A DNA stretch of 64,000 nucleotides from assembly GCA_002049455.2 (NCBI GenBank), contig KV918782.1, positions 396,627 through 460,626 of the forward strand, given 5' to 3'. Both the position numbers and the translations under genes were made by a program. The notes beneath the pieces are model-generated. The model was not told where the DNA came from. It did no database searches and saw only the letters and a list, made by a program, of their open reading frames with translations. This document shows positions 7,441 to 64,000 of the stretch, piece by piece; the stretch's first letter is position 1, and the number at the start of each line of letters is the position of its first letter. The DNA is from Porphyra umbilicalis (lineage: Eukaryota > Rhodophyta > Bangiophyceae > Bangiales > Bangiaceae).

Positions 7441-9145
7441 TTATTCATCACCTTCATCCCCGGACAAGTCGTCTGACGACATGATGATCATATTCACCGT
7501 GTCAACAATAGCCTCCTCCGCATCCTCTGCGTCCAATTACGACCGCTCAGCTTCACGAGCGTCTCCCTCAGACGTCACCCCAATCATGTCCTGTCCGAGG
7601 GAGGAGCCTCGCATCAGCGCAAGCACCTCATCCACATCATGTTCCACGTTTGCAAAACCGTTGCGGTACACACCATGAGACGTAGCGAAAAAGACAGACA
7701 CAGCTACTGAGAGGATCGTGGACTTCACCCAACAGTGCAAAGCAGATGTTGACGTCACTTTTTCCCACTCCTCCACAATGAGTGTGGCCGCATCCAATAG
7801 GTGGGCACTTCCGCGCCCGGCCAGGCCACAGTCCCGTACCGGGCGCGGTGTCTGGCTCGGGGGCGGCAGAAGGGAACGGAGTAGGCCTTGTTGAGCGGCC
7901 GCGTCGGCCGCGTCGTCGGGCGCCTCGAGCGCCGCCGACCGCGGCGCACCATGCACCCGTAGAACATCAACCGACGGGGCCCGCCACAGGCGCTCATTCT
8001 GTGGGCAGAAGCCCCGCAGAGACCTCGAGGGTGGGGGGGACGGCAGAAACGACATGGCCACAGGTGGGGTGGGAGGTGGGGGAAGAGGTGGAGGGGGCGG
8101 TAGAGGGGGCGGCAGGGGCGGCGGCGGGGGCGGCACCTGAGGCGTGGGCGACGGGGAAGTCAGACGAACGGGCAAGGACCTGACGAGGATGACCAAGAGG
8201 CGGTGCTTGTAGCGCCTCTTCAGCGACTCAATTACGCCAGTGTCCTTTGCCCGGTACACCGCCGTCGTGTTGTCGGGAAGGAAAAATATTCCCACGTCCT
8301 CCGAGCTTAGTGCAACGTCATGAGTGGATGAATTATCCATGAGTAGAGCACACTTGGCGCCCCGGTGACGTTGGCGAATAGCCGATAGGAAGACGTCATT
8401 CCACCTTCTGTCGTACACATGCTTGTCCATCCACGCCTTTTTCTGGTCGAAATACGGCAAAGGGCATTCGTTGCCTTCTCCACAGAAGTACAGCGGGCGG
8501 GCGGCCGAGCCAATCATGGCCACTTGCGACTGGTGCATCCCCGTCGCGTTCGCGCATAGCTAGCGTGACTCTGTTCATCCAGCGCATGGCCTTTGAGCCG
8601 CGCGCAATCCGGCCGTCACGGCGAGGTACGTACGATCGGGTGGGTAGGCACTTCTACAACAGCCCTGTCTCATCCATGTTGCAAACACAATCAGGGGGGC
8701 AGCTTACGAACTTCCGCCGTAAATACTCCACGGCCGCCGCCGCCTCGGCCAGGATGGTGCCACCTGCCTGCCCGTGCATGGCAATGTTGCAGATGTCGTA
8801 CCGCTTCAAAATCCCTCAGATGTAGCCATGGCTGGCCGTGGAGCCGGTGACCGACAGCCGCCCGGTGTTCGTGCACGCCACTTCCTGGAGAAGAGCGGTG
8901 GTTATAGGAATTCGACGGTGGCCCAGCGAGTATACAGCTACGTACCACTGGTACAGTGAAGTGTCTAGCTCTGGCCATTTGCCCTGCCAACAGCTAGTCC
9001 GTGCCAACGTGTGTGCATCGCTTGGCAAGGCGCGGTCCTTGGCGACAGACCGCATCATCCTCAGTCCCGGGTCCTTCGTGATGGGGATCGCCAGCTGCCG
9101 CAAGAATACCGTCCAGGAAACATCCGCATCCCTAAGGCGCACCAT
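7441..9145 (-). pseudogene. pogo/Tigger-type DDE transposase, decayed
   Basis: Pieces of one transposase read downstream from ATG 9145. First comes a CENP-B/Tc5-like DNA-binding segment (WPELDTSLYQWYV). Next is the first catalytic Asp in CNMDETGLL, then RGSKAMRWMNRVTLA, then the second Asp in LLMDNSSTHD, then FLPDNTTAVYRAKDTGVIES carrying the third Asp (DDD type). The gene is broken. A stop follows the DNA-binding part near 8816, a TAG replaces the residue after DETGLL, a 1-base frameshift lies near 8545-8555, and a TAA near 7537 precedes an acidic tail ending at 7441. An unusual polyproline insert (about 8060-8150) sits after the third Asp. In living relatives this enzyme excises and reinserts Tc1/mariner-type elements at TA sites. 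This copy cannot be active. Confidence 0.85.
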
Positions 9146-19633: not shown

Positions 19634-21275
19634 TTAACCGAGGAAGTCGACGACCGACCCGGCTTCTTCGACTCGTAGGCCCACACGTCGCATATACTGG
19701 TGCACCTTACGTCGGTCGAATCGACTGGCCAACTCGAGGGTGTCCTCCTTGGGGTGGTACCCCCACCAGCGGGTCCACAGGCGTAGCATACCATCGTCAG
19801 CGACTTCGTGGCCCACGAAGGCCTCCCAGACGAACTCCTTGCCCGCGTGTTGATGCCCCTCGGGGACCACGATATCTTGGGGCACCCCGAGGGTCTGCAG
19901 GAGCGTCTGCGGATCCCCCGGCGGGCCCGGCGCCGCCGTCACGTGGTCACTGCTCACCGTCTCAGGGTACCCGTCGATGTCGAACGAGAACGTGCCCTCT
20001 CCGCGGGACAACACCTTGTACGGCCCGGCCGCGCGGGTCCCGAGATTATACTTGGTCCGCGTGTGGCCATCGACGAACACCCAGTCCCCCGCGTGGACGT
20101 CCTTGTTGACCGGTCGTACGCGGGCGTCGTAGTTCCTCTTGTACCGCCGCTGTGCCAGCGTGAGGGACTTCTGCACCTTTTGGATTAGGATCCGCAGCCG
20201 CGCTCGGATGCCCTCGCGGACGGCTCGTTGGCTGCCGTCCGTCTCGTCGGGTGCCGGGGAGCCGACGAGGCGTTCCACTGAGAGACTCCGTACACGCTCA
20301 GGGGTGACGAACTCGAGGGGCGCCACCCCGGTGCTCTGCTGCGGTCGACTGTTGTAGGCCAACGTCAGCATCGACACCAACTCGTCCCATCGGTCTTGGT
20401 GGTCCTCGACGTACGTCCGCAGCTGGCCCACGATGGTCCTGTTGTACCGTTCCACTTGGCCGTTCGTCTGCGGATGGTACGTCGTGGAGTACCGGTTAGA
20501 GACCCCGAGGAGCGAGCAAACCCCTTGGAAGAACGTGGAGCGGAACTGAGGGCTATTGTCCGACAACACCGTCGCCGGGGGTCCGTACGCCGCCACCCAG
20601 TGGTCCAAGAAGTCTGTCGCGATGGTTTCCGCGTCAATCCGCTGAAGGGGGATGGCCCGTGTCATCTTGGAGAAACGATCCACGAGGACCAACAGATGCT
20701 CGTTCCCCACCGCCGTCCGGGGAAGGGGGCCAAGTAGGTCCATACACAGATCCGTCGGCGGTTCCGTCGGGGGTATGGTCTTGAGGTAGTTTGTCTTGCG
20801 TCGCTTGCCGACGCGGTTCCTCGCGCACTGCGTGCAGTTGGCATCGAAGGCGTAGACGTCCACCACCATTGATTCCCAATAAAACCACCGTCGCATCGAC
20901 GTGTACATCTTGTTCGCCCCCGGGTGCCCGGCTTGCGGAGGGTAGTGCTCCCGCATCATCACCCCGTAGCGCATGTGGGTCGGCACGTAGACTTGCGCGG
21001 CCCCGTCCAACGGCGCCGTGCGCACCAACAGGCCGTTCGGGTCCTCGCGGAACCGCGACTTGTCGTTGCTGTCCATCGCCACGCGAACCTCCTTGCACGA
21101 TCCGTCCTCCGCCTGCCCTTCGAGGATCTCGGCGAGCGTCAGGGGGCCTAGGAGTCCCCCCTTGGTCTCTGGCGGCAATTGCCACTCGGCCGACGAGTTG
21201 GGCAAAGCCAAACAAGGTACCGCGCCGGGTATCGCCCCCTCGTCTCCCGCGGGTGTTACATCGTGTCCGCCGCGT
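19634..21275 (-). pseudogene. Integrase with zinc finger and chromodomain
   Basis: The frame carries an HHCC zinc finger (REHYPPQAGH then CTQC), followed by the integrase core. Its Asp residues are in DLCMDLLGPLP and TVLSDNSPQF and its Glu is in HPQTNGQVERYNRTI, so the D,D,E triad is complete. A GPYKVL-type segment follows, then a chromodomain-like tail (LWTRWWGYHPKEDTLEL) before the stop at 19634. Chromodomains of this kind steer insertion towards histone-marked chromatin. The frame is joined to the RT-RNase H frame only through a shift near 21260-21275, so the pol protein is not continuous. The core itself looks well preserved. Confidence 0.85.
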
Positions 21276-23394
21276 GGTGTGACGCCCCGGGACGCGTCTG
21301 TACCACGTATTCGAACTCCGCCAATCGCAACCGCTACCGCGCTAGCCTCATGTGGGCCCCGTCCATGTGCAGCATCGACTTGAGCGCCGCGTGGTCCGTG
21401 CGTACCGTGAAGCGGGTCCCTTCGACGTAGGGGCGGAGAAGGAGGGACGCCCACACAACCGCGAGGCACTCCCGCTCCGTCGTGCTGTAGTTTCGATCCG
21501 CCGCGTTGAGGGAGCGGCTCCAATAGCCAACGCGCCGCGTTGATTGGTCGGGTTGTTCTTGTAGAAGGACCGCGCCGACCTGCCCCGCACTTGCGTCCGT
21601 GTCCAACGTGTAGGTCCCTTGTCGCCTCGGCAGGGCGAGGATGGGGGCCTCCGTGAGTCGCCTCTTGAGTTCCTCGAATGCCCGCAGGGCCTCGTCGGAC
21701 AGCGTCCCCCACCGGTCGGGCCTCTTGGAACTTGTCATGGCCGCCAACGGCCGCGCCACTTGGGCGTAGTCCTTGACGAACCTCCGATACACGTTACACA
21801 TCCCGAGGAAGCTACGTAGGTCCTTCTTGCACCGCGGGGGAGACGCCTCATTGAGTCCGCGGATGTTCTTGTCTTGTACCTTCAGCTCCCCCCGGCCCAC
21901 GATATGGCCCAAATACTCCACCTCCTCTTGGAACAAGTGGCACTTCTTAGCCTTCAGGGAGAAACCCGCGCCGCGCAGCGCCGTGAAGACCTCCCGGAGG
22001 TGTTTCACGTGTTCTCCCGCCGACTGGGAAAAGACGCTGGTGTCGTCGAGGTACACGAGGCAGCTCTTCCACTTGAGTCCCCCGAGGATCATGTCGATTG
22101 CCCGTTGGAAGGTCGCCGGGGCATTGGACAGACTGAAGGGAAGGCGGATGTAGCGGTAGGCCCCCTCGTGGCAAACGAAGGTTGTCTTGTCCCGGTCCTC
22201 GTCCGCCACGGGGATCTGCCAATACCCCGAGTTGCAGTCGAGCGTCGAAAACACCTTGGCGTCCCCGAGGAAGTCAATACAATCGTCCATACGTGGCAAC
22301 GGGTACACGTCCCGCACCGTTACCTCGTTAAGTCGGCGGTAATCCACGCAGAACCGCATCGTCCCGTCGGGTTTCGGGACTAGAACGACAGGGAAGGCCC
22401 ACTCGGCGCTCGAGGGCTCGATTACCCCGAGGTCCCGTTTGCGCTGCACCTCCTTGGCGATGATGTCCCTCGAAGCGTGGCTCGCCCGATAGGGTTGGGC
22501 CCGCTGTGGCCGTGCCGCGGGGGTCACCTCGATCCGGTGCGGGGTGACGTCGACCTTGCCGAGTTGTCCCGACCATAGCGCCTTGTATTCCTCGAGGAGG
22601 TCGTCCACGTCACCACGAAGCGTGTCGGGGACGCCCTCCCAGTGGAACTCCGTCTTAGGATACGTCTTGTCCGGCGGGTGCGGTGGAGGTTGTCCCTCGT
22701 CGATCCTCTCTTCGGCTTGCCGCCCCGTCTTGACCTCCTCGTCGGGCTTGTCACGAGGATCCGCCCCCATTGTTAGGACCGCCCCCGGTTCCTCCTCCTC
22801 CTCGACGACGTGCAGCGGTCCATTGTAGGCCGTCGCGGTTCCGATGACGTACCCCTTCGTTACGTGTACCGGCACGTCCCCGATGTTCGTCAGGTAGAGG
22901 GACCGCGGGGTGTTGGGGGAGAACTCCGCGACCGCGTTACTCAACAGTACCTTCCGTCGGCTCATTTTGACAGGGCGTTCCCGTACCAGGTGGACCCCCT
23001 TGACGTTGCAGCACACTTGGACCGCCAGGATGCACCGCGGGTCCACGGTTACCCCTTGCCGAAGCCGTATAGCCCCAGCTTGGGCCTTCGGCTTGTTTCC
23101 TCGTCGAGGGGGTGCGGGCCGCGTGTTCCTTGTCCACCTCCGCGTCTCCACCGTAGACGTGCCGTCGTCCCACTTGATCGTCTGCGTCTTGGGGGAGATG
23201 GTGTCCACGTAGTTGCGCTGGAAGTCCCACCCGAGGATGAGCGGTACCGACAGTGCCTTAACCACGAGGAACTCATACTCCATAGCGGCACCCCCGACGT
23301 AGATCGTCAGCGACACCTCCGCGTCCACCTTGAGCAGCTGCCCCGAGGCGTCACTCACTTGGGTCCGGGGCGGCGCCCGCGGTGCATACTCGGT
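21276..23394 (-). pseudogene. Protease tail, reverse transcriptase and RNase H
   Basis: The N-terminal part continues the protease (LILGWDF). Reverse transcriptase follows with FCVDYRRLNEVT, LPFSLSNAPATFQ and the active-site YLDD at 22042-22053. RNase H follows with YTLDTDASAGQVG, STTERECLAVVWA and FTVRTDHAALKSML. A TAG at 21334-21336 stands where relatives usually have Trp, after which the same frame continues with RLRLAEFEY and QTRPGASHHAADTM before it is lost. Apart from the stop, the catalytic residues of both enzymes are intact. Confidence 0.85.
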
Positions 23395-32812: not shown

Positions 32813-35800
32813 ATGTCTTTTGGGGGCGGCACGCCCTTTGCGGCGGCGCCGCTGTTTGGCGCCACCCCCGCCTTTGGGGCCACCCCCGGCGCGTCCACGA
32901 CGCCCGCCACCGGCCTCTTTGGCGCCGCCGCCCCCGCCGCCGCCCCCACTGGCGGCCTCTTTGGCGGCGGCGCGGCTGCCGGGGGCGCCGCCGCCGGCGG
33001 AGGCCTGTTTGGGTCGGGATCGCGCCCCGGGGGCGCGACGGGGGGCTTTGGCGCGCCCGCCACCGGCGCCGCCGGTGGGTGGGGGGCCCCCGCCGCCGGC
33101 ACGAGCGCGTTTGGCGCCCCCGCCGCCGGCACGGGCGCGTTTGGCGCTCCCGCCGCTGCCACGAGCGCGTTTGGCGCCCCCGGCACGGGCGCCTTCGGGT
33201 CGGCCGCCGCCGCGCCCGCGACCGGCGTGTTTGGCGCCCCCGCCGCCGGCGCGGCGGGCGGGTGGGGCGCGCCCGCCCCCGCCGCCGGCGGGGGTGGCCT
33301 CTTTGGCAGCGGCGCCACCGCCGCGGGCAGCGGCGGGGGCCTCTTTGGCGGCGGCGGCGCGGCGCTGGGCACGTTTGGCGGCGCCGCCGCCAAGGGCACG
33401 TCGCACACCCCCTACGCGGCCACGACCGTCCAAGACGGGTCCAACACCGTGCCCTACACCTCCATCACCATGATGCCCGCGTACAAGGGCTACTCCCCAG
33501 AGGAGCTGCGGATGGAAGACTATGAAGCGGGCAACAAGGGTGGTGGGGGGGGGGGGGCGCTGCAGCGGGGGGGGGGGGGCTCTTTGGCGCCCCCGCGCTC
33601 TCGTCGGGCGGCGGGCTGTTTGGCGGCGGCGCCACGACCAGCGCGTTTGGCTCCACCGCAGCGCCGGGCAGCACGGGCGGGTGGGGGGGCTTTGGGGCCA
33701 CGTCGGGCGCTGGGGGGCTCGGCGGCACCGCCGGCGGGGGCGCTTTTGGGTTGGCCGCCCCCGCCGGCGGCGGCGCCTTTGGCGCGGCCGCCCCCGCGGG
33801 CGGCGTCGGGGGCCTCTTTGGCGGCGGAGCAGCCGGCGGCGGCGGCAAGGGCGCCTTTGGCTCGACCCCCGCGGCGGGGGGCGGCTTGTTTGGCGCCCCC
33901 GCCCCGGTGGCCGGCGGCGGCGGCGCGTTTGGGGGGGGGGTGCCACCGGTGGCAGCCTCTTTGTCGGCGCCGCCACGGGCGGCGCGTTTGGCTCCACCCC
34001 CGCCGCGGGAGGCGCGGCGGCGGGCGGTGGGGGGCTCTTTGGGGGGGGCGCCACGGGCGGCACGGGCGCGTTTGGCTCCACCCCCGCGGGTGGGGGTTTT
34101 GGCGCGCCGGCGCCCGGCGCTGCCGCCGCCGGCGGGGGCCTGTTTGGCAGCGGCGCCACGGCTGGCGGCGGCGGCGCCACGGGCGGCGGGGGCTTGTTTG
34201 GCTCTGCCCCGCCGGCGGGCGGCGCCGCCGCCACGGGCGGGGGCCTCTTTGGCGGCTTTGGCGCCACCCCAGCAACGTCGGCGCCGGCGCCAGCGGGCGG
34301 GGGGGGGCTGTTTGGCTCCACCGCCGCCGCGCCGGCGGGCGGCGCGGCGGGCACGGGCACGGGCGGGGGCCTGTTTGGGGGCTTTGGCGGCGCCTTTGGC
34401 GCGCCGCCCGCGGCGAGCGGCGGCGGCACGGGCGCCGCCGGTGGGGGGCTGTTTGGTGGCGCCCCCGCCGGTGGCGGGGGGGCCGGCGCCACGTCGGGCG
34501 GCGGAGGGCTGTTTGGGAACTTTGGCGGCGGCCTGGGCGGCGCCGCCGGCGGCGGCGGCTTGGGGGGGGGGGGGGGCTCTTTGGCGCCGCCCCCGCACCG
34601 TCGACGGCGGGGGCGGGCGGGGGGCTGTTTGGGGGGGGGGGCTCGGCGGCGGCCTCGGGGGACTCGGGGGGGGCACCACGGGCGGCTTTGGGGGCTTTGG
34701 CTTGGGCCTCGGCGGTAGCACCGCCGCGCAGCAGCAGCAGCAGCAGCAGCAGCTGCAGCAGCAACAGCAGCAGGCCCAGGCGGCGGCCGCCGCCGCCGCC
34801 AACCCGTCCCTCGTCGCGCGGCTGGGGGATCACCCGTTTGGCACCTCGGCGCTCTTTGCGTCTGCCGGCGGCGGCGGCGGCGCGGTCGTGGCCGCCACCC
34901 CCACGCCCGCCGCGTTTGCGCCACCGTCTGGCGGCCGCGGCGCCGTTGCCATCTCCCGCCGCAGCGGCGGCGCGGCGAGCCTCCTCCGCCACCCGGCGCG
35001 CCGCGCCGGCGCGGCGCGCGCCGGCGCCGCCACCGCGTCGGGGGCGGTGGCGCTCGCCTCGTGGGGCGCTCCGCCCGTGCCGCCGTCGGCCTTTTTCGCG
35101 CGCCCGCCGGGCGGCGGCGGCGGCGGCGGCGGCGCGGGCGCCGCCGACGCGCCGCCGCCAGGCGGCGGCGCGTTTGCGCCCGGCAGCTCCCTGGTGCGCG
35201 CCGCCTCGCGGGCGGCTACGATTAAGCGGCTGGTGTTGGAGCCGCCGCCGCCCGTGGCGGCGCCGCCACCGCCGCCGGCAGAGGCCGACGCGGGTGAGGA
35301 GGCGGCGTCGGCGGCGGCGGCGGCCGACCCGTCGCCGTCGGCGGGTGCGTGCTGGGGCGGCGCAACGACGCCCGGGCGGGGGCGCCCGCTGGTGCGGTCG
35401 TCGACGCCCGGGACGCGGGGGGGTGGACCCCGCGCGGCGCGCCGTCGCCGGCGCGCCGCGGCCGGCCGGCGTCGACGCCCGCGGCGGCGGGCGGCGGCGG
35501 CGGCGGCACGCCCGCGAGTGGCGGCGGCGGCGGGCGCACGAGTCCTGCGGACACCCCCTCCCGCCGCCGCCTGTCGGTCGCCGACGCGCTGTCCGACGCG
35601 GCCGAAGACGGCGACGCACCGTTGGCGTCGGCGGGGCGGCGGCCGCCGCCGCGCGCCGTCGGCCGCACCGACGCGGGGGGCGGGAGCGGCCTTCGGGGGG
35701 GCGCCACCCCGTCGGGGCGCCCGCGGCGGCCGTCGGCGCGCCCGCCGCGGGGCGTCAAGGCCGACGCTGCGGCCGGCCGGGCCGGCTCCACGGCGGTGGT

Positions 35801-36257
35801 GGGTGGCGCGCCCGCCGACCGCCCCGACCTGCCCTACCTGACGGAGCCCGACTACTACACGCGGCCGTCGATGGAGGAGCTCGCCGCGGCGCCGGCCGCC
35901 GACTTGGCGTCCGTGACGGGCTTTACGGTCGGCCGCACGGGCGTTGGGGAAGTCACCTGGACGACGCCCGTGGACGTGCGGGGCTTGGACGTGAATGGCA
36001 CCCTCGAGCTGCAGCCGCGGCAGGTGTCGATGGACGCTGACGCGGTCGGCGCGGCCGCCCTCAACGCCCCAGCGACGGTGCGGCTCGTCGGCGTGTGGCG
36101 GCGGGACAAGGCGACGGGCGCGCCACGGCGGGGGGCCGCTGCCGACGCGGCGATGCGCAAGAAGCTGCGCGCGCACTGCGAGGCGGCGGGGCTGACGTGG
36201 GGGGGGTACGACGGGGAGGGGGGGGTGTGGCAATTTCAAGTGGAACACTTTTTGTAA
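32813..36257 (+). CDS. NUP98: Nup98-type FG nucleoporin with GLEBS motif and autoproteolytic fold
   Basis: The protein builds the permeability barrier of the nuclear pore. From ATG 32813 (context CTCACCATG) come GLFG/FG repeats and then a GLEBS-like segment (YKGYSPEELRMEDYEAGNKG, about 33484-33543) that in relatives binds Rae1/Gle2. More GLFG repeats follow, then a Gln run encoded by CAG repeats (34729-34770), an Ala/Pro-rich linker, and a C-terminal Nup98 peptidase-fold domain from about 35820 (LTEPDYYTRPSMEEL, VTGFTVGRTGVGEV, VWQFQVEHF). The reading changes frame only in G runs (33541-33577, 33930-33940, 34560-34573, 34629-34642, 35414-35421) while FG repeats continue on each side, so I infer assembly errors. 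The protein ends HFL-stop, without the Ser of the usual HF/S cleavage site and without Nup96, consistent with a stand-alone plant-like Nup98. About 1,145 residues. Confidence 0.9.
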
Positions 36258-49806: not shown

Positions 49807-50216
49807 CTGTCCACAGCGAACGATCCAGTGTACACGGCTCTATGGCCGGCTCAGCGTCACGTGCCGGTGCTGCCCCGCGCGGCCGCTCGGCCACTGCCCG
49901 GCCAGCCGCCCGACCACGCCTTGTTCACTGCGTCGCGACGCGGGTGGGCGCGGTGACGCAGCCGCCAGACCACCGCAGCGTTTGCCTGTTGAGGTGTTTG
50001 GGCGTGACGACGACCACGCCCCTGCAGACGGCGTGTACCTCGGCGCGCGTGTCGGCAAGCGCCAACGTGCGGGCGGGGTAAGGACCTTGGACCGCCGCCG
50101 TGCCTGGCAGCGGTGCGCGGCCGCCCGCGTGTCACGCCGCCGGCGGGCGGGGCCGCCTCCCTCTGGGACCCCGCCCCCGACCAACGCTGCGAAAACGCTC
50201 GTCTCTCCACGGCACA

Positions 50217-50238
50217 CCCCCCCCCCCCCCCCCCCCCC
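50217..50238 (+). repeat. 22-base poly-C tract in the 5' leader of the VWA gene
   Basis: Twenty-two consecutive C residues end 12 bp before the ATG at 50251. Tracts of this length vary in cell populations and in sequencing, so the count is unreliable. Position in the leader means length changes would not disturb the coding frame. Confidence 0.6.
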
Positions 50239-50250
50239 GGGTTCTCACCC

Positions 50251-52845
50251 ATGACGGGCATGGCTGCCCCCCGGCGGCGGCGGCTCGCCGCCGCCGTCGC
50301 CGCCGCGGTGCTGGCGGCCGCCACCACCCCCACCGGCGGCGGCGCGCAGGGGGGTGGCTTGACCACCCTCCTCGACACCAAGCGGGAGGTGACGGCCCGC
50401 CTCGCGCGCGCCGCGCGCGCCGCCCTCCTCGGCAACGACCGCTGCGCGTCGCTGGCCACGTGCGCGTCGTCCGGCGGCTGCTCCTACGCCGCGTGCGGGT
50501 GGGAGTTTGACGACACGCTCCGCTGCACGCCGCGGGCGGCGTCGCCGCAGTCTGGCTGCGGCGGCGACGGGTGCGGGGCGATCAAAATCGCCAACCGCAC
50601 GGGCTTTGTGCGCGTCGCCGCCGGCACCGAGTTGTCGACCGACGGCCTGGTGCCGCTGGCCGTCTACCAAGAGACGTGCCTCCTCCGCTCCCTCGATGCC
50701 CTCTTTGTGCGCCAAGCCGCCGACACGGTGCCGTGGGCCTACTTTGGCACCGCCAACGGGGTGCACCGCATCTACCCGGGCGTCCGCCGCACGCACCTCG
50801 ACGATGGGACGTGCCGGCCGTACGACCCGCGGCTGCGCCCGTGGTACGCGTCGGCCGCGTCGGGGCCCTTGGACGTGGCTATTGTCGTTGACCGCTCCGC
50901 GGCGATGGGCACCACCGTCACCCCCGGCGGGCGGTCGGTGATGGAGGCGGCATCGGCGGCGGTCGACGGGCTCCTCGGCACCCTCGATTGGTCCTCGTAC
51001 GTGGGCGTCGTGCGCTACAATGACGCTGCCGAAGAATTGGTGTCGTTGAACCGCTTCGTCCAAGCAACGCGGGAAAAGGTCGGCCTCCTCCAGTCCGAAG
51101 CGGCGTCCTCCCTGTCGCCCGCCGGGGGGGTCAATGTGTCGGCCGCCCTCGGCACCGCCTTTGACCTCTTTGAGCGCTCTGCGGCGGCAAAGCGCAGCTC
51201 CGGCTGCACGCGCGTGCTTTTTTGGTTGACCGGCACCAACGACGACTGCTACGCCCGCGAGTGTGGGCCCGACGCGCGCGGGCCGTGTACGTGCACGTCG
51301 ACGGTCGTCGACGAGGTGCGGCGGCGGCAGGCCGCCCTCGTCGCCGCCGACGGCATTCCCGTCACCATCATTGTGCTGTCGTTTGGGGGCGCCTCGGACG
51401 CCCTCGCGCGACAGCTAACGTGCGGCGGTGCCGTCGACGCGCAGGGCCTGGTCGTCCCGATTGAGGACGATGGGGGCAACTTGGTCACCGCCATGGCCCC
51501 CGCCTACCGGTGGTTGTCCACCGCCCGCCGCCGCACGCCGTTGGCGGCCGGCTCGGTGTTTTTCTCCGAGTCGTACGAGGACGATGGGGGGTTTGGCGTA
51601 TTGACCACCGCCGCGCTGCCCGTGTATGACAATGCCGGCGCGCTGCTCGGCGTGGCGGGGGTGGACATCCCCCTCGCGGAGCTCCGCCGCCGCTCCCCGT
51701 CGGCCGAAGACGCGGTCGCCGAACTCTCCGCCGTCGGCACGTGCTCCCGCCCGGGCCTAACATCGTGCGAGCAGCAGGCGTTGCGGGCGCCCGCCGCGGG
51801 GGTGTGCGCGCAGCAGCTGCCGCACGCATTGAGCCGGTGCTTTTCGCCGCCAGGGGGCAACAACGGCAACGGCACCGACAACGATGACGGCGGCGGCGTC
51901 GTGTGGGTCACCCACCTCGACCCGGCCGACGCGCTGCCGGCGGCCGCCGCCGCCGCCGCGTGCGCGCGCCTGACGCCCGACGGCTCTGGGCGGCTGGCGA
52001 CGGGGCGGTCGGCGGCGGCGGCGGTGGCGCTCGCCGGCGTACTCGGCGTGGATCGCACGTGGGTGGGCGCGTTCCGCAGGGCGGGCGGCGGCGGCGGCGG
52101 CGGCGGCGGCGACGGCGGCGACGGCGGCTACGTGTGGGTACTCGGCGGCAACCGCACCGCACCCGTCACGTACACGGGCGGATGGCCGCGGGGGGAGGCG
52201 CCCCGCCCGGGCGAGGGCGCCGGCGACTGCGTCACGGCCGACCGGCGGGGCGTCGGCGGCGCGTGGGCGCCGACGCCCTGCACGACCGCAGCCGTGTACG
52301 TGTGCGAGCTCCCCGGTGGAGCGGCGGCGGCGCTACCGTCAGTGTGTGGCGACGGCGGCGTCACGGTGATTGGCGACGCGCCCGTGGCGCAGACGGTCAA
52401 CCCGCCGGTGGCGCGGTGCCCCGTGGCGGCGGCGGGCCCGCCAACGTGCGCGGCCGTGCCCGAGCGCCAGCGCCGCCCGTTTTGTCCGCTTGGCGCCCCG
52501 GGGGATGATTGTGCCGACCGCTGCTGCGCCGGCTGCACCTGCACCCTTGCGTCATCAAAGGGGGACCCTCGTGAGGGCGGGGGGGGGGGAGGAGAGGAGG
52601 GCGGCGGGCTCGGCCCCGCCGCGATTGCCGGGGTGGTGGTTGGGGGCCTGGTCGGCGCGGCGATCGTGGCCGCCCTCGGCTGGTTTTTGATGCCATGGAT
52701 CCGCCGGTGCGTGGGGGGGGGCGGCGCGGACAACGCCGCCAAGCCCCTGAGCATCGCGTCGGAGGGATCGGCAGAGGGGGGGGTCAGCGGCGGCATGGAC
52801 GGAGAGCCCCGCGGCGTGTCCGTGCCAGACACTTGGGACACGTAG
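50251..52845 (+). CDS. Single-pass membrane protein: VWA, Cache-like and C-type-lectin-like regions
   Basis: The ATG is at 50251 (a second is at 50260), giving about 864 residues. An Arg cluster and a hydrophobic Ala/Val stretch form a signal peptide. A Cys-containing N-terminal region leads into a Cache-like sensor (YFGTANGVHRIYPG, YDPRLRPWYA). A von Willebrand A domain follows (PLDVAIVVDRSAAMG) whose metal site reads DRSAA instead of DxSxS, then a second Cache half (DNAGALLGVAGVDIPLAEL). After a Gly-rich loop comes a C-type-lectin-like segment (TWVGAF, GDCVTADRRGVGGAW, AVYVCEL). A Cys cluster and a membrane span (AAIAGVVVGGLVGAAIVAAL) precede a short cytoplasmic tail. The VWA-inside-Cache order is that of calcium-channel alpha2/delta-like proteins; here a surface sensor or adhesin role is inferred. 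The frame is uninterrupted. Confidence 0.8.
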   Translation: MTGMAAPRRRRLAAAVAAAVLAAATTPTGGGAQGGGLTTLLDTKREVTARLARAARAALLGNDRCASLATCASSGGCSYAACGWEFDDTLRCTPRAASPQSGCGGDGCGAIKIANRTGFVRVAAGTELSTDGLVPLAVYQETCLLRSLDALFVRQAADTVPWAYFGTANGVHRIYPGVRRTHLDDGTCRPYDPRLRPWYASAASGPLDVAIVVDRSAAMGTTVTPGGRSVMEAASAAVDGLLGTLDWSSYVGVVRYNDAAEELVSLNRFVQATREKVGLLQSEAASSLSPAGGVNVSAALGTAFDLFERSAAAKRSSGCTRVLFWLTGTNDDCYARECGPDARGPCTCTSTVVDEVRRRQAALVAADGIPVTIIVLSFGGASDALARQLTCGGAVDAQGLVVPIEDDGGNLVTAMAPAYRWLSTARRRTPLAAGSVFFSESYEDDGGFGVLTTAALPVYDNAGALLGVAGVDIPLAELRRRSPSAEDAVAELSAVGTCSRPGLTSCEQQALRAPAAGVCAQQLPHALSRCFSPPGGNNGNGTDNDDGGGVVWVTHLDPADALPAAAAAAACARLTPDGSGRLATGRSAAAAVALAGVLGVDRTWVGAFRRAGGGGGGGGGDGGDGGYVWVLGGNRTAPVTYTGGWPRGEAPRPGEGAGDCVTADRRGVGGAWAPTPCTTAAVYVCELPGGAAAALPSVCGDGGVTVIGDAPVAQTVNPPVARCPVAAAGPPTCAAVPERQRRPFCPLGAPGDDCADRCCAGCTCTLASSKGDPREGGGGGGEEGGGLGPAAIAGVVVGGLVGAAIVAALGWFLMPWIRRCVGGGGADNAAKPLSIASEGSAEGGVSGGMDGEPRGVSVPDTWDT

Positions 52846-53139: not shown

Positions 53140-54479
53140 TGACTTCCTACTTTTGGCCCATTTTTTCGATGTTCAAAATGAGCCACATAGTCTGACACTG
53201 TGTCTCAGCCATCCACCCAGCGGAATCCATTGGATTGACCAATGGGCAGCTGACCTTTCTGATTTCAATGATGTCGGCCAAAATTGGGAAGGCAGAAATG
53301 TTGCAACCTGTGACATATTCCAAGTCGAAACATGTTTGGTGACAAGCAGGGAGCCCAAGGACAAGATAAGTAGTCCCGTGTGGCAGGGGAGCTGAAAAGT
53401 TGGGTGCTCAGACTGCGGAGGAACGGAAGGAGTGGGCGGAGCTACCAGAACAACAGCCTGTGACAGCAGGTCGGCAGTTGGTGAATGCGGAGGAATGGGG
53501 TAGGGCGGCCGGTGAGGCTGGTGGCCACCGATGGGGCACACGACTGGCCACCCCTTCAGCGGCGAGCGGCCGCCTTGTTGAAGATGGCGCTGGCGCGGCG
53601 GGCGGTCTGGAAAGCGGCGGGCGGCTCGAACCGCCCTTAGCGTAGCAGCGGTCGCCAGCGATGCAAGGCAGATGGTGGCGCCCCTTCTGCGCCTGCTGTC
53701 GCTCTGGCCACGCTGCCAGGTGCGGACACATACCCATCATGAAGTTGTTGTGCCCCCCTGGCAAGCCTGGGCTGACGCAGTCGCCGCAGGCGCCTGCCAC
53801 CTACTGTCGCGTGCCGCAGGCAGCTGCCTCCTGCAGATACAGCTGTTACTCGGAGTTGCATTCGTCACGCGAGTGCCACGACCGCGCGCTGACAGTCCCC
53901 AACAGAGTTTAGCCGTCACGCTGCGGGGGTCCTGTACCGATACGCACCACTCCCTCCACAGTGGGAAACGGACGGCAGACCGCTCCTTCCACTCCGCGGC
54001 CAACCATACGATTGTAGTGCCTGCAGGCGTCACTGATGTCGGCATCGGGGCCTTCACCTGTTTGCGGAGCAGCTACACTTCGCATGGGCGCTGACCTGTC
54101 AAGGCGCCGATACGATGTCGGTGTGCCTCATGAAATGCCATAGTGTGCTTTCTTTCGCAACAGTGGGGTCGACGAGGGATGGGCCAACGTTGTGCCAGGC
54201 GGAGCACCTTCCTATGTCTCCTTTGGTCGCAGACAGTCGCCCACCTCAGACAGGCAGCTACAGCTGGCTGGCCAACGGAGGCAGTGGTTTCCCAGCTGGC
54301 AGATATTTCCGAGGCCGACCCCGTCACACAGTCGTGGGCCAGCTTCCACTTGGAAATAGCCGCATGCAGGGCTCGTCGACAGACCCATACAACGCCGGTC
54401 TCTCTGGCGTGAAGGTACCAGGCCACAGCTTCCACACCAGTAGTCACCTCTGGAAGAGGTGAGGAGCGAAGCACCCTAT
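53140..54479. other. Region 3' of the Fanzor
   Basis: No named gene. A minus-strand frame at 54073-54483 is open for about 136 codons directly after, and slightly overlapping, the Fanzor stop, and reads like plausible protein with scattered Trp and Cys. In characterised Fanzor and TnpB loci the guide RNA is encoded over the 3' end of the gene and the following noncoding DNA up to the element boundary. This interval is therefore where such an RNA would be expected. I could not identify element ends. Confidence 0.35.
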
Positions 54480-57400
54480 TCACACACCACGAGATGAACC
54501 TGGTGAACAGTCTACGATTACCCGCTCGAGGCGGCTCGGAGACGAGTGGCTGTGCCCTATGGCTGGCGCGGGGCTGGCAGCAGCCATCTGGCCGACGTTA
54601 CTCGTCGCCAGGTCACCGCTTGCCGACGCAGCAGCTGCGTCGTGCGCCCCGTCTGCCACCACACCCAGCGCCTCTACCCGCACCGTTGGCGCCGCCACTG
54701 GCACGGCCGTGGGGGCCGTCCCCGCCTCCGCGGCCGGCGCGTCGGCGACGACAGGTCGGCGCCAGGGCTCCCACGACGCGGGTGAACACCGCGTCCACCC
54801 GTAGCCGGCCTCGTAGGTACCCGCGTCGATCGCAGCCGCGTGCCGCACCGCCTGTACAGGGTCTTCCTGGGGTGGCGCGCGTGACACGGTGTACCCCCGA
54901 ATGTGGGGGTAGATGCTCCGACCCTGCATGCTCTTGATGGCAATCTTGCACATGTTGCGCGCCGCGTTGGTGTCTCGCCCGACGTACGAAGCCGGGCAGG
55001 CGACGTTGGTACACAGCTTGACCCCCCACAGCGCCAGCGGGTCGGTCCCAAACGCCCACTTGCCGTGAGCCGCAATCGCCTGCAGCACCTTTGTCCGCAC
55101 CGCCTCTGCGTGCTCCTTGGCGCGCTGGGCAGCCGCACCGTCGCGTGGACCCGACCGACTGCCGGTCGTCACACCCCGTCGCGCGCGCCGGCCGCCGCGG
55201 AGGGGCGAGGCGCGCTTGGCCGCCGACGCCGACGCGCGATGTGCGTAACTGCTTGCCGCCTTGAGGGGCGTCAGGTCAACCGGCGAGTCGGGCGACACGT
55301 ACGTGTTGCACAAGCCGTGGCCGCACTCTGCACACGTCAGGCTCGTATTGTGCTCGTCCACGTACACGAGGTGCACGTGTTTGGCCATGCGCCGCACGAG
55401 GTCGACGCTGCCGGCGCGCGGCCGACACCGCCCAATCGCCAAAACCGCCTTGGTACCGTCCACCGTGCGCCGCAGCAAACCGCCCGTCAAGCGGCGCGCC
55501 AGCACCGCCGCGTACCGGTTGCGCTGGATGAGGGCGTGTAGCCGCGCCTTGCGTTGACCGTACGTCGCGGCCGCCCCGTACGCCGCCTGATAGGCGTCTG
55601 TGTAGGTACGCGCAATGCGCACAGTGGCCGCCACCACCCACGCGCCCCACGTCGTGACCTTGAGGGAGCACCCGGCCGCCAGTGACTCGCGTGGCACGCC
55701 TGGGTGTGCCGCCGCCCACACCGCCACCGCTGATGCCTCGGCGCGCCTCGTCATACCGGCGCCCGTCGCCTCGCGGTACGCGCCTTTGGAGACGACCAGC
55801 GTCGCACCAGTGGGCGGGACGCACACGCGCCGGCGCCTCCCGGCGGCGGCCGCACGTTTGAGTGCGGCACACAACACGCGCAAGCGGTCGGCCGACGGCA
55901 GCGACGTGCCGGGCGCGCCGAGCTGCGGGGGCGCAGCGGGTGCAGCAGCGGCCGCCGCAGCCGCCACTCGCTCTGCCGTGCGCAATGCCGCCGCCGTCTG
56001 GCGCTTGTCCTGCGCCGCGCGCTGCACGAGGCACGCGGCGTGTGCCCCAATGTCGACCGACACTGCACGCCATGCCGCCTCTGCGTGCGCCGCCGCTTCT
56101 GTCTTGGCCTTGACAGCCGCCGTCGCGTGCGCCGCCTCTTTGAATAGGGCCGCCTCGCCCACCCACACACACACGTGGTTGGACAGGTGCCACGGTTGGA
56201 CGTTGCCGCCATTGATCGTGGCGTGCGCGGTGGCGCGCATGCGCGTGAGGATGGCCCGGCGGCGGCCGGGGGCGCTCGTCCCCCGCTTGCGGGCCACCTC
56301 TTGCCGTTGCATCGGGGTCAACCACTCGTCGCCAAAGGCCGGCTGCTTGTACCGCCGGCGCTTGGGGGGGGGGGGTCCACCGCGTCTGTCGGCACCGTCG
56401 GTGCGTGCTCCAAAGGCGGCAAAGACGCTTGTGCCGCGGGCGTGGCCGCCGGCGGGCCAACCAGGTCTGTACGAGTCCGCTTTGGGGGAGATCCCGCCGC
56501 CCCGGTCGACGCACCGAGCGCTCCACGGCCGCGCTTTTTGGTCGTCTGGCTCACCGCGTCACCGCCGCCGACGGGAAGGCCCGCCGCGGTGGCCTTGGCC
56601 GCGCGCGCAAGGTCAGCCAACTTGGAGTGTAGCGCGTCGACGGTCGGCAAAACCCGACCACCCCGCCGCACGAGGCACTCGGCGGCGGCGGTCGCGGCCA
56701 TGGCCGCCCGCGCGAGCGCGTCGCCCGCAATCCGCAGCGCCCGGTACGTCCGATACGCGTGCAGGTGCGGCGCAGGTGACTGAACAAACGGCACCGCCCC
56801 GGGGCAGTAGGCAGCGACAATCGACGCGACGCCCGGGTCCCACCCAACAAACGCCAGCTCTTTGACGACGTCGGGCGAAAACGCCATGCGGTCCAGCTGC
56901 GACCGCACGCTCGCCGTCTCGGTGGCCCCTCCCCCCCCCCACGACCGGCACTTGCAGCCTTACGACGCGCCCGCCGAGCGGCCGCCGTCGACGCGGCGGT
57001 GGCGGGGTGCCGTATCGTAAAGTGCACGCCGACACCGTCCGACACGATGGAGGGCCCGACCACCGTCTTGGCGCCGACAATGCGCGCGCGGCGGAGCAGC
57101 GTTTGAATGAACAGCCCGTCGGTTGTCGGCGCTGGCAGCGACACCCCGGCGGACGCCAGGCGCCGGCGAAGCAGCGCGCCGCCGACTCGCGCGTACGCGG
57201 TGCACGTGGCGGCTCGGCCGGGTGACGTGTCGGTCGCCTCGATGCCGGCACGGATGCACAACAGCTGGGCATAATGGAGCAGCGGGTAGACGTGCAGCGG
57301 CCGCTGTCGCAGGGTCGACGCGTCGAGCTGGAGGAGACAGCGCCGCCGACCGTCACCACCGGCGTAGACGAGCACAGTGTCGTACGCCAGCGTGGCCCCG

Positions 57401-59406
57401 GCCGCCATGGCAGCCCCATCCGCCGCAGACACTTTGCCCGCCGGCCACTTGAACGACGGCGGGCGCGTGCCGTCGGCGGCTTGCAGGCCGGCAACGAGGG
57501 CCGCAATCAGTGCCGCGCGGCGCTTTCCGTCGAGACCGCCGGGGGCCTGCGGGTAAACGTCGTGAACGATGCACTTGGCAATGGCCTTGACCGCCGACGT
57601 GACGCGCGTCACATAGTGGTTTTCAAAAGCCGTCGCCACGGTGGCCCAACCAGACGTGTCGCCCGGACCCGGCAGCAGCGTGCTGCACGGCAACTGGCTT
57701 GGCTCGGTCACCGCGTCTGTCACCGCCGCCGACGCCGCCACAAAGGCAGAGTAGTCGCCATCGCCTTGGGCGGCGGCCTTGATGTCCCCGCGGGGCTTGA
57801 CGTGTGCGCCTCTACCCGAGCAATCGACGCACGCCCGCCGGGGGGCGCCGCCAAACGCGTGGACACCGCGACAAGAGACGGTCGAAGCGACCTGCTTCCA
57901 GGCACGCCCGTGGTTGCTTGTCAGCGACGCCGGCACGGCCGCGATAAACTCGTCGAGCGTGCGCCGGCGGTGGCCGCCGCCACCGCCGCCATCCCCACCA
58001 CCGCCGCCGCCCCCGCCCGCACCCTGCCCGCCGCCACCACCGTCGACGCGCTCGAGCAGGTACCGCATCGTGCCGTCCATGACAATGGACACGAGCCGCA
58101 GATGCTTTGTCTGTGTCGTGGCCAACTCGGTCAGCGCGGCCGCCCCCGCGGTAGCGTTTGCGACAGCGGCGGCGGTCCCCGTCGGCGCGCGACGGCTCGA
58201 CGTCGTAGGCGGGCGCCCCGTCGGGGGCAAAGAGTTTGCCGGCCCCCCTGGCGCCAGCCGTCGTCGGGCACCAAAAAACCGGTCGACCGACACGGAAACG
58301 GTCGTCGTCACCTCCCCCGTCATGCGGTGCTGGTCGACGCACCCCAAGTCGCGCCCGCGGTCTGCATTGTGGCCCGACCAGCCGTGGGCGACGGCTCGCA
58401 GCGGACACACAGCGCTGGCCCGGGTGTGGCCACGCGCGTGGCACGCACTGCACTTGTTGTTTCCGCTGCCGGCCTTGACGACCTTGGCCGCCTTGGCCGC
58501 CTCGCCAGTCGCCGCGTGCGCCGCCTTAGTGGCAGCGTCGGCCGGACACGTTTTCACATTGTGCCCCGTCGCCCCGCAGCCGCCGCATCGACGCTGGCGG
58601 CCACGCGTGGTGCCGCCGCCGCGCGCCGTGGCGCCAGCGTCGCCACCATTGCCGTCGCCATCATCGTCGCCCGCGTGGTCCCCCGCGTCGCGCTGCACCA
58701 TGGGGATCAGGCCCTTGACCGCCGACAAGACGCTGCCCGCCGCGTGACGCGCTCGCGCGCAGAGGCGCCTGCACGCCACCCGGGCGGAGGCGTCGGCTCT
58801 TGTGTCGGCATCGGTGGGGGGTGCCGCGGCGCCCTCATCACCGTCGTCTGGTGCGGGTGGCCGGGGCGGTGGCACCGTCACAGCGGCGACGGCTTGCAGC
58901 ACGGCAGTAGAGGCCGACGTGGCGTCGTCCATCGCCGCCGACGCGGGCGACCCAGTGCCCCGCGCGTGCACCGGCTTTGATGCGAGGAGCTTGGACAGGA
59001 GGGCACTCGCGGCACGCAAGCTCGCCACCGGCCCCGCATCACCGGCCGCCTCACACGCGGCGACGGCGGCGGCAACCTCCACCGTCGCCGACCGCACGGC
59101 AGACGCCGCACTCTGCCGCGCGCTGTCGAGGTGGCCACCCGCCTTGATTGCCGCGTCCTCGCCGGCCGTACCGAGGCGCGTGACCTCGTCGTCGTCGTCG
59201 AGGTCTGCGCCCACAGGCCCAGCCACACCCCCGCCATTGTCCCCATTGTCGTTGCCGCTCGCCGTCGCCTCGCGGGGCGGCGCTGTCGCCAAACTGGTGG
59301 TCGTCGTGGGGCGCCGCGTCGTGGGACAGTGGCCGCTGCGACGCGCCCGAAGCGCTGTCGACGTGCCGGGTGCCTCCTCCTCGTCGGTCGACGACTGGTC
59401 GTCCAT
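54480..59406 (-). CDS. Fanzor: eukaryotic TnpB-like RNA-guided nuclease with N-terminal zinc knuckles
   Basis: From ATG 59406 about 1,640 codons run to the stop at 54480. The N-terminal part is acidic and low-complexity, with zinc knuckles CGGCGATGHNVKTC (58546-58587) and CSACHARGHTRASAVC (about 58400-58455) and a CVDC motif near 57810. The nuclease half has the pre-RuvC strand SDGVGVHFTIRHP, then RuvC-I VGWDPG (Asp codon 56837-56839). Where TnpB has its second acidic residue this protein has LAIGRC. A Glu in VYVDEHNTS (55353-55355) follows, then CAECG and CTNVAC as a four-Cys finger, and RDTNAARN (Asp codon 54972-54974). The relocated Glu is a Fanzor feature. The frame changes twice, at a 10-base C run (56931-56940) and a 12-base G run (56364-56375), with sensible protein on both sides, so I infer assembly errors. 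Known Fanzors are usually much shorter. Confidence 0.88.
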
Positions 59407-59631
59407 GGCGGGGGACGAGCGCACACGGGCGGGGGAGGACTTGACGTCCTCAAGGCGGTGGCGCGCCCTTGCCGCCCGCTAGGGGTGTCGGCGCGGGGCG
59501 GAACGGCGGCCAGGCCTGTGGGCGCATGGTTGTGCACGGCGCCAGCACCCATCACACCTTTTATAGGAAACGGCACGGGTAGCGGTGGCTGGCTTGCCGC
59601 GGCCGAGCGCACGACACAAACACACCCTCGC

Positions 59632-60960: not shown

Positions 60961-61629
60961 GTCGGCAGCGGGGTTATGTCTGGTGGTGGGCGGTCAGTTT
61001 GGCAGCGCCTCTGCCGTCGCCGGATCATACGCGTAGTTGTGTATCCAAATTGCACTATCAACTCTTGAGACGAGGAGATGCTACGGTGTGGTTGTTGGTG
61101 CGACAAGGCAACGACGACCGGCGCGCCGGCACATGCACGCACTCTAGGTCGCTGCTCCCCAGCGCCTTCAGCATTCCACTCTGTCCCTCCCCCTGGCCAT
61201 CCCAAGTCTCCCACCGTGTCCGTTGTGCTTGTACTTCCCCACCTTTGTGCGCTTTTGTGGATTCCCTGTAGACGCTTACGACACCCGACGCGTTCCGACA
61301 GCCGTATAGAAGCCGCTCGTATGATCGTCAGCCTCGGTCTTTTGGACAAAGGTCCGTTGCATTCAAAAAACATCTCGCCTGTGGGGGCAGGCGCGGCGGG
61401 CCCCCTCGCCGCCCCCCCGCTCACGCCCCCCCCCCGGCGGCGGCGCCGAGCGCTTCGGCGGTGACGCGTCCCCCCCCGACAACCCCCCCGACACGGCGGG
61501 CTCCCTATGGGCGGCCACCACCCGCACGACATGCCCAAACAGCGCCGCCTCGTCGAGGTCGTCGAGTGGCGACTCATAATCGCCCTCGTACACTGAAGAA
61601 GTGATGCCAAAGAGGGGGTCCTCACGCAA
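60951..61629 (-). CDS. Hypothetical gene or exon downstream of the 332-bp array
   Basis: Just inside the first array unit (minus sense), TTTTTTGTACAG looks like a splice acceptor. It is followed by an open frame reading REDPLFGITSSVYEGDYESP and then LDDLDEAALFGHVVRVVAAH before a C-rich run at 61420-61436. Beyond that run a different frame reads GEMFFECNGPLSKRPRLTII and RAASIRLSERVG. The change at a homopolymer suggests one protein with an assembly error, as elsewhere in the window. No domain is recognised. Start, splice pattern and end are uncertain. Confidence 0.35.
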
Positions 61630-62405
61630 CTGTACAAAAAACTAATGGAGGCTGCTCCCATGACCGCTCTGTATCGAGAAGCGCCGTGAAAAGACCTATC
61701 CGCGGTGCTTTTTTTCACAACATACGCAACCCCTCCCAGACGCATCAATTTCAATGGTTCGGAGCCTACGAAAAACGCGTTGGCGACGCTTCAGCTTGTC
61801 AAACTGCCTGTTTTGGGCTGTGGCATCGGATAGGACTCGCAAAGGAGCATCGCGTGCATATGCGAAACTCACAGACGTGCCACGCACCGGCCGTTGAGTG
61901 ACGGCTCGACTTTATAGACGTGCACTGAAAAAGTGATGCCAAAGAGGGGGTCCTCACGCAACTGTACAAAAAACTAATGGAGGCTGCTCCCATGACCGCT
62001 CTGTATCGAGAAGCGCCGTGAAAAGACCTATCCGCGGTGCTTTTTTTCACAACATACGCAACCCCTCCCAGACGCATCAATTTCAATGGTTCGGAGCCTA
62101 CGAAAAACGCGTTGGCGACGCTTCAGCTTGTCAAACTGCCTGTTTTGGGCTGTGGCATCGGATAGGACTCGCAAAGGAGCATCGCGTGCATATGCGAAAC
62201 TCACAGACGTGCCACGCACCGGCCGTTGAGTGACGGCTCGACTTTATAGACGTGCACTGAAAAAGTGATGCCAAAGAGGGGGTCCTCACGCAACTGTACA
62301 AAAAACTAATGGAGGCTGCTCCCATGACCGCTCTGTATCGAGAAGCGCCGTGAAAAGACCTATCCGCGGTGCTTTTTTTCACAACATACGCAACCCCTCC
62401 CAGAA
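61591..62405 (-). repeat. 332-bp tandem array, 2.45 near-identical units with TATAAA
   Basis: Units begin at 61591, 61923 and 62255 (CACTGAARAAGTGATGCCAA); the third stops at about 62405. The copies look virtually identical over hundreds of bases. On the minus strand the two complete units contain TATAAA (61911-61916 and 62243-62248) and an open stretch with basic residues (DKLKRRQRVFRRLRTIEI). All three carry a GTATGT donor-like word and a TTTTTTGTACAG acceptor-like word. This looks like a duplicated promoter plus first exon and intron reading into the frame at 61629-60951. High identity means either recent duplication or an assembly collapse or expansion. Confidence 0.85.
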
Positions 62406-64000
62406 GCATGACAGTCTATGGTGCGTCTGCCGGTGCCGTCGCACCGCGGCGACCGCCGGTGGTCGCGACGCGGGGTGACTTCTGGCCGGCGCCAGAGCAG
62501 GGGGGTGCGCTGGGGCGGCAGCGACAGTGCAGAGAGCGCGGGGACCGCCGCTATAACGTCCATGGATTTCTTCGTTCCTAACGCTGCGGGTTTCCAGTTG
62601 GAACTGCTGCCCAACGATGAAGGCTGCGACGCGTCGACCGGCGCCAGCCGGTCAGCGTTGTGGCGGGGCAGCGGCCAGCAGGATGCTTTGCGGTGGCGTG
62701 GATGGGGTCGTTGTCCAGAAGGGGTAGGAGTATTCGTCTCTGGGTACAGGGGGCACCCACTCAGGCGGTGGCGCACGCCACTTTTCTGGCTGTGGCCGCC
62801 TCGTTGCCGTCGGCGCTGGCGGAGACAGCGGCGGCGGGACGTCGCCGCTGGTTGGCAACTGAGCGGCACGTCACGATGACGCCAGACGGTTCTAGCGTTG
62901 ACTTGAAGGGGGTAGTGGGGTGACTGTGTAGACGGCGAGGGATGGCTGCAGGTCGGAGAGTGTGGGAGGTCTGCGGCGGGGGACGACTTGCTCCTGGAGC
63001 TGAATGAGCAGAGTTGGGGACAGGAGAATACCACGCGTGGCCGGCCTCCTCTTTTAGGCCGTCCGCCGACCACACATATACCTTCGTCGTGTCCCGGGTG
63101 GGTCGCATGCGTCTGTTACTGCACCTCTGCCGCAACATTGTCGTGTCGCACGCGGCGACGACGGTGAAGGGGCGACGGCGGAACAGGAAACCTGGCAGGT
63201 GTTGCGGAGTAGGTGACGCAGACGGTGTGGTCAGGTGGTGTGTGGCAGCGGAGGTGCGGAAAGAGGTCTCCGCAGGGTTGGTTGCCTTTTATCGGTGCGA
63301 AAACAGACACCGCGGAGCCACGTTCTTTTATTTTTTGACAAACTCTTTCACGCCACAGCGCCTGCCGCAGGGACACAGTTGTGTGTCGACATGTGTTTTG
63401 GGGGTGGCGAGGTGGGAAATGGACGGTGGAGCGGGTGGTGCATTCGGGACGAGAAATGTCATGCTGGAGACGCTGACTGTATTTGGGGTTGGTCTAGTGC
63501 CTTTCCCGGCCCGTCGCTGTCGGTTATCCTAACATAACGACTGCGCACGCCCGCTGCGCCACCCCCTTTCGGCAAATGACGTCGTGATAGGCACCCTCCC
63601 GGCCACGGCGGCCCACGACCCGGCGCCCAAACTGTCTGACGGCATTTTATTTGGTCGGGTCCTCCTGTCCAGGCTGTCCAGGGGAAGCAGAGAATCACAA
63701 AACAGGACGAGGTCGCAATAAAAACATACGCAGATAAACGAGGGAAGGTGGCTACCGCGCACAGTGGTGCAGGGCGCCGAAGTCGTAGACCGAGCCCCGT
63801 GACGTCAGTTATCATGTACCCACTGTGGACCCTGACGCAGATGCGTGCCGTGTCTTCCTCCTCGCAGCATATGGATGACATCACACCAATCACAGCAACG
63901 CACACACTCACACACCACTCGCCCACCAAGGCGACCACGACAGAGAGAACGTACCTTGCTACCACTTGCGCGCTCTGCGCGGTCCGCCCAGCGAGGCAGC
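62406..64000. other. No gene identified
   Basis: Several moderate frames overlap on both strands (for example plus 62418-62879 and 62660-62923, minus 62360-63073), but none has a recognisable domain and they switch coding style. A protein-like stretch on plus (HATFLAVAASLPSALAETAA then ERHVTMTPDGSSVDLKG, about 62770-62920) is the most plausible exon. The minus strand upstream of the 332-bp array may instead be the 5' part of that transcription unit. Confidence 0.3.

Follow-up and report, generated by a model that had tools for sequence, protein, structure and literature searches.

The stretch of DNA analysed here (the window: 64,000 nucleotides of the red alga Porphyra umbilicalis, contig KV918782.1, positions 396,627 to 460,626) carries on its minus strand a Fanzor1-type gene whose product combines zinc-knuckle-like motifs in its N-terminal part with a nuclease half (Table 1). 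In the list of open reading frames (ORFs), the window gene is spread over three frames. Compared with L039, a copy of 96% identical DNA, it differs by single bases in G and C runs near 56941 and 56365, and by one further length change within the gene, an in-frame difference of 18 bases in a Gly-rich stretch. L039 itself holds an uninterrupted frame of 1,660 codons from stop to stop (1,636 if counted from the ATG), and the frame of L040, a copy of 83% identical DNA, runs uninterrupted over 1,921 codons from stop to stop and holds all parts. Introns joining the three window frames were considered and rejected, as neither L039 nor L040 has any. Because the frames of these two copies read through, the gene is single and intronless; either the window copy is an inactivated one or its homopolymers were mis-sequenced. 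Among the five longer copies examined, the whole protein lies in one frame in L039 and L040, and not in L041, L042 and L043.

Table 1. Features of the Fanzor1-type gene and of the right end of its element (window positions)
Feature	Position	Strand	Remark
TATA box in CCTATAAAAG	59559..59565	-	~150 bp upstream of the ATG
Fanzor1-type gene, ~1,640 codons	54480..59406	-	in the window copy, broken at two homopolymer runs by single-base length differences
Start codon ATG (GCCATGG)	59406	-	
N-terminal extension, acidic/Ala/Gly-rich	58621..59406	-	about residues 1-262
Knuckle 1, CX2CX4HX4C, CGGCGATGHNVKTC	58546..58587	-	
Knuckle 2, CX2CX4HX6C, CSACHARGHTRASAVC	58405..58452	-	
Conserved core before RuvC-I, read as REC/WED, with SDGVGVHFTIRHP	56984..58134	-	putative assignment, from motifs
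RuvC-I motif VGWDPG	56831..56848	-	
RuvC-II with E_alt (the Glu placed six residues ahead of CAEC) and the first zinc-ribbon half; TNB Pfam match, below the cut-off in the window frame	55323..55361	-	
Second zinc half and RuvC-III RD	54972..55013	-	CTNVAC 55013-54996; RDTNAARN from about 54977
Last ~54 codons, low divergence	54483..54644	-	possible overlap with guide-RNA scaffold, suggestive at most
End of stop codon	54480	-	
Right end, stop codon to element boundary: hairpin TCACCTCT-TCC-AGAGGTGA and CTACTGGT	54436..54482	-	

The original prediction that the knuckle part and the nuclease part form one gene is borne out by the read-through frames of L039 and L040, and the fusion it described recurs in relatives within the genome. 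A query with the nuclease part gave 87 genomic match rows, the best 47 of them at E <= 2.6e-178 and several with internal stops; a 144-residue query over the knuckles gave 60. For 41 of the best 47 nuclease rows, a knuckle row of the same strand lies no more than 16 kb upstream, at a distance of 1,827-1,875 bp in 30 cases, 1.4-2.9 kb in seven and 6.8-10.9 kb in four; the other six have no upstream knuckle row, one of them (C194) lying 0.7 kb from a contig end. The copies fall into two subfamilies of about 83% DNA identity with a common architecture and a common upstream TATA box, the motif being found before the gene in L040 and L041 (the 83%-identical subfamily) as well. Two separate genes, or two neighbouring elements, joined across stops would account for the different frames in the window, but such an arrangement is highly improbable in view of the single frames of L039 and L040, the near-constant spacing in 30 of the 47 rows, the TATA box upstream of the knuckles, and a metagenome protein (P0008) that carries knuckles and RuvC-I in one chain.

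The nuclease half presents VGWDPG, VDEHNTS, a four-Cys finger and RDTNAARN on the minus strand in the order originally described. When the 1,636-residue protein was shuffled 20,000 times, this ordered string never arose, and neither did two CCHC-like motifs within 80 residues; a single canonical knuckle arose in 11 shuffles. Along protein P0001, the conserved core occupies residues 425-831 and GWDPG residues 849-853, followed by Glu 1346, CTNVAC at 1460, RD at 1472 and a tail to 1636; E_alt lies within EHKTSQTCAEC in P0001 and EHNTSLTCAEC in the window. The Fanzor fingerprint given in PMC10711439 consists of DPG together with a Glu placed six residues ahead of the zinc motif, and both are present, DPG at RuvC-I and E_alt before CxxC. 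A strict expression for RuvC-II, zinc ribbon and RD fits 25 of 34 nuclease copies without a stop. Segments of three solved Fanzor1s, SpuFz1, PpFz1 and GtFz1, were fetched from the PDB. They likewise have a second zinc half of the form CX4C (CTNPNC, CKNMSC and CTNDSC, respectively, and CTNVAC here), and SpuFz1 and PpFz1 also have wider zinc gaps than the published spacing expression discussed below. SpuFz1 reads TTDG...HP (TTDGASVSV) and the protein described here VSDG...HP, and the SpuFz1 segment TTDGASVSVYLKHP resembles SDGVGVHFTIRHP; SDGVGVHF stands at residue 783 of P0001, with S where the TDG motif in WED has T.

A profile built from these three Fanzor1s gave 12.0 bits for P0001, 9.7 for the window frame and 14.7 for the best relative, compared with at most 4.0 among 3,310 decoys, made up of 310 window ORFs and 3,000 shuffles. 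Among 21 targets, the 18 that contain the region, namely the window frame and 17 proteins, scored 5.0-14.7 bits; without it, P0008 (N half) scored -2.3, and P0003 and P0007 were unreported. Judged by this profile, the similarity to solved Fanzor1s goes beyond chance and is weak and short. With the TNB profile (PF07282), P0005 reached 33.2 bits by hmmscan against a cut-off of 26.3, and a search of the genome returned 32 rows marked as over the cut-off, seven of them only together with neighbouring matches. No second Fanzor family was seen by the TNB profile in the genome, because all 32 rows coincide with rows of the nuclease query. The fingerprints in order and the profile scores above the 3,310 decoys sustain the earlier assignment to Fanzor-type nucleases. 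NCBIfam TnpB gave at most 14.9 bits against a cut-off of 100. On these sequence grounds, the protein is taken here as a divergent Fanzor1.

The protein is as oversized as first claimed, with about 1,640 residues against 600-700 for most Fz1s (PMC11423790) and up to about 800 for some Fanzor1s (PMC10711439); PMC10432273 gives 400-700 for Fanzors. The knuckle block covers residues 273-379 and is followed by a linker to 424 (P0001, from Met; segment limits drawn by the analyst). The roughly 700 extra residues originally placed upstream of the nuclease are an overestimate: about 420 in the N-terminal part are extra, and about 400 look like ordinary REC/WED, the putative identity of the core between knuckles and RuvC-I. 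Further enlargements lie between RuvC-I and RuvC-II (~495 residues), between the zinc halves (~100) and in the tail (~165).

The two CCHC-type knuckles of the original prediction are upheld in part. Knuckle 1 has the canonical pattern CX2CX4HX4C, as in zinc knuckles of the zf-CCHC_6 type, whereas knuckle 2 departs from it with X6 before the last Cys, and neither reaches the Pfam zinc-knuckle cut-off, the best score being 18.4 bits against 22 (zf-CCHC_6, P0003). The E values for zf-CCHC_6 (PF15288) are 0.88 for P0001, 0.21 for P0002 and 0.002 for P0003, all below the curated cut-off. Across 14 aligned sequences (eight chosen from the 60 knuckle rows, together with L039, L040, L041, L042, the window and P0003), all four ligands are kept in 13 for knuckle 1 and in nine for knuckle 2; the set leaves out L043, which gave no match to the search string, and P0008, in whose sequence both motifs are visible. 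Parts of the N-terminal stretch of P0008 were modelled as helices at a predicted local distance difference test score (pLDDT) of 60-80 within an otherwise unusable model.

Downstream of the gene, the copies share a right end. Among the 30 loci L009-L038, 24 have an end in CTACTGGT after the gene and differ from one another in the flanks beyond it; L010, L014 and L017 run on after GGGTGCT into other sequence, the end of L023 is changed, and L011 and L027 (also L001) gave no match to the right-end anchor. A 26-base pattern of the end occurs at 66 genomic sites with up to three mismatches, its reversed control at none. Forty of these right ends adjoin a Fanzor end and 26 do not. About 8.5 kb part three of the latter from a Fanzor end, and another (C215) begins 148 bases away from the end of a contig. 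Solo right ends possibly represent non-autonomous 'ghost' elements. In L010, L014 and L017, the stop codon is about 8.5 kb away from the right-end hairpin; the three have the same junction, which would reflect either site-specific insertion or one event that was copied; an ORF with APGPSGLRMEHL in a 3.5 kb piece (L061, C447:33000-36500) presumably resembles a non-long-terminal-repeat retrotransposon. Short exact-match tests in L040, L041, L043 and L039 revealed no target-site duplication. Upstream of the gene, a module of about 0.9 kb (window 61587-62492) is repeated head to tail at G000:C507:28640-36497 in steps of about 990 or 664 bp.

Towards the right end, divergence between copies falls: across 338 of 594 copy pairs, those with more than 10% upstream divergence, the mean is 0.10-0.34 upstream and 0.03-0.08 in the final ~1 kb, and the non-coding right end diverges by 0.07. 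Between 54644 and 54525, the divergence is 0.04 and third codon positions are no more variable than first and second ones (third-position ratio 1.02), which is suggestive at most of an RNA overlapping the coding sequence. Gene conversion between the subfamilies explains the low divergence of the 3' third equally well, and the chances that it, rather than an overlapping guide RNA, is the cause are judged to be even. Its case draws on the unevenness of the drop, which spans about 1 kb, on a third-position ratio of 2.1 in the last 14 codons (54524-54483) beside 0.93 in an unrelated upstream stretch, and on uninformative covariation, since only two of 53 predicted pairs carry double changes; the values between 54644 and 54525 run counter to it. 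The covariation set comprised 26 distinct sequences, without L010, L011, L014, L017 and L027, in which 22 of the 53 pairs vary. Folding energies of the right end are mildly low (z -1.9 and -1.5, for folds that include five bases of flank).

The protein is most likely an RNA-guided nuclease that would be carried by its own element and help it. A right-end RNA would start in the 3' end of the gene and read through the right end into the adjoining DNA, and the part derived from the flank would serve as the guide. The protein would bind this RNA and cut matching DNA bearing a target-adjacent motif (TAM), and cutting would favour retention and spread of the element. A divergent giant Fanzor1 that is encoded by a repeated, probably transposable element and works by such a Fanzor-like mechanism is regarded as the likely state of affairs. 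With less assurance, the knuckle block may bind single-stranded nucleic acid, most probably either the right-end RNA or the displaced strand or element end; from their place upstream of REC/WED, the knuckles could make contact with the scaffold of the guide RNA or with the TAM-proximal duplex. A bolder and doubtful proposal is that the helical region and the knuckles together constitute a nucleic-acid-binding module built into the chain. It would assume tasks of the guide-RNA scaffold or of a transposition factor, and a single protein might then both carry the right-end RNA and handle the single-stranded element end.

The knuckles may instead act on element DNA, such as the hairpin end or a single-stranded transposition intermediate, and not on guide RNA. 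This seems unlikely, although the hairpin and the sharp boundary at the right end would suit it and Helitron2 elements carry Chlamydomonas Fanzor1s (PMC3627910). Of 28 RepHel rows in the genome, none lies on a contig with any of the 66 right ends or with a Fanzor row, these row lists being lower bounds and the left part of the element being incompletely seen. A Helitron origin is accordingly not supported. Nor was a Pfam transposase identified in the eight ORFs scanned of the 15 listed upstream in the C78 copy (L056).

Several results tell against a giant Fanzor1 of a transposable element, the lack of a Pfam transposase in the scanned ORFs among them. The copies remain similar leftwards beyond the window and the contig end, and no left end was delimited. 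The expression DPGx(120-160)Ex6CxxCx(12-18)CxxCx(4-8)D, made for TnpBs related to Fanzors (PMC10711439), is kept in order and broken in spacing, with ~495 residues from DPG to Glu, zinc halves ~100 apart and a second half of CX4C. The match to the three-Fanzor1 profile is a stretch of ~35 residues that surrounds E_alt, and a weak second piece takes in the second zinc half and RD; the decoy set held no TnpBs, so the division between Fanzor and TnpB rests on the DPG/E_alt fingerprint. PDB sequence searches with proteins of this family found no Fanzor. By hmmscan, P0005 is the only one of six scanned proteins with the region to exceed the TNB cut-off, P0001 (18.7 bits), P0002 (19.7), the window frame (21.8), P0004 (25.2) and P0006 (25.4) falling below it, and the window copy is absent from the 32 genomic TNB rows. 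Two structure models were unusable (pLDDT 34.6 and 35.2). As for the knuckles, L040 is without one ligand of knuckle 2 despite its uninterrupted frame, and the ratio of non-synonymous to synonymous substitution rates (dN/dS) does not single them out: between L039 and L040 it is 0.28 in the knuckle-2 block, similar to 0.33 in the N-terminus and 0.31 in the linker, and the 0.46 of knuckle 1 reflects five changes only.

The remaining ratios are 0.29 for the core, 0.12 for RuvC-II and 0.35 overall, by which measure the whole chain is under purifying selection. Under such selection, the knuckles could be roleless relics of a captured domain. This is a possibility of some weight, if not a probable one: the scores below the Pfam cut-off, the similar ratios in flanking segments, and the loss of a knuckle 2 ligand in five of the 14 sequences, L040 among them, accord with it, but knuckle 1 is kept in 13, and dN amounts to 0.09-0.10 in the knuckle block against 0.23 in the N-terminus and 0.34 in the linker, two segments whose dS likewise exceeds that of the block.

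Outside the genome, three protein searches for relatives returned only metagenome proteins (P0003-P0020), the first two having scored only the 8,000 candidates that shared most words, a procedure by which known Fanzors could be missed. P0013, P0016, P0018, P0019 and P0020 terminate in CSLEGDG or a similar sequence in place of CSPGSSRGV, which suggests another type of right end among the metagenome relatives. A viral origin was rejected, as a C-terminal query found no relative in viral contigs; five pattern matches were obtained there, none of them confirmed. In the genome, 11 of the 20 copies L009-L028, including the window copy, are no more than 10 kb away from the end of a contig, and this proximity is either subtelomeric or simply due to assembly breaks in repeats. 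An actin gene in the genome is of clearly eukaryotic type. Elsewhere in the window are retrotransposon ORFs with reverse transcriptase, RNase H and integrase domains (19634-23394), a DDE_1 transposase-like ORF (7537-8559), an ORF that combines a von Willebrand factor A domain with a weak match, below the cut-off, to a chemoreceptor-like sensor (50008-52845), and a stretch of 83% G+C (34001-36000).

Fanzors are eukaryotic RNA-guided nucleases, relatives of CRISPR nucleases, and are under development for genome editing. A repeated lineage about twice the known Fanzor size, with uninterrupted copies and knuckles, would show the growth of new nucleic-acid-handling parts, and a giant Fanzor allows a direct test of whether added parts replace guide-RNA structure or aid unwinding. 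A literature search, with most subscription journals outside it, found no paper joining Fanzor with 'zinc knuckle' or TnpB and Fanzor with CCHC.

SpuFz1 of Spizellomyces punctatus (8gkh) resembles the present protein in DP at RuvC-I (DPG here, DPN in SpuFz1), a Glu placed six residues ahead of CxxC, CTNxxC as the second zinc half, RD, and a comparable segment before RuvC-I (TDG there, SDG here). According to PMC10432273, it also belongs to a repeated element with Fanzor-less 'ghost' ends, which the solo right ends described above recall; it differs in its 638 residues (same source) against about 1,640, the present protein having N-terminal knuckles, a longer RuvC stretch, a zinc-ribbon insert and a tail. 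Parasitella PpFz1 (9cf0) shares a comparable second zinc half, CKNMSC, and a RuvC insertion (the FRI domain), but that insertion is of about 100 residues and binds a cyclophilin (PMC11423790), whereas ~495 residues separate DPG from Glu here and an N-terminal knuckle block is present. The Fanzor1 elements CRe-1/2/3 of Chlamydomonas (Helitron2) are likewise present in many copies, with a hairpin near the 3' end and conserved 3' ends, and unlike the intronless gene described here, which shows no tie to the Helitrons detected in the genome, they carry five- or ten-exon genes (PMC3627910).

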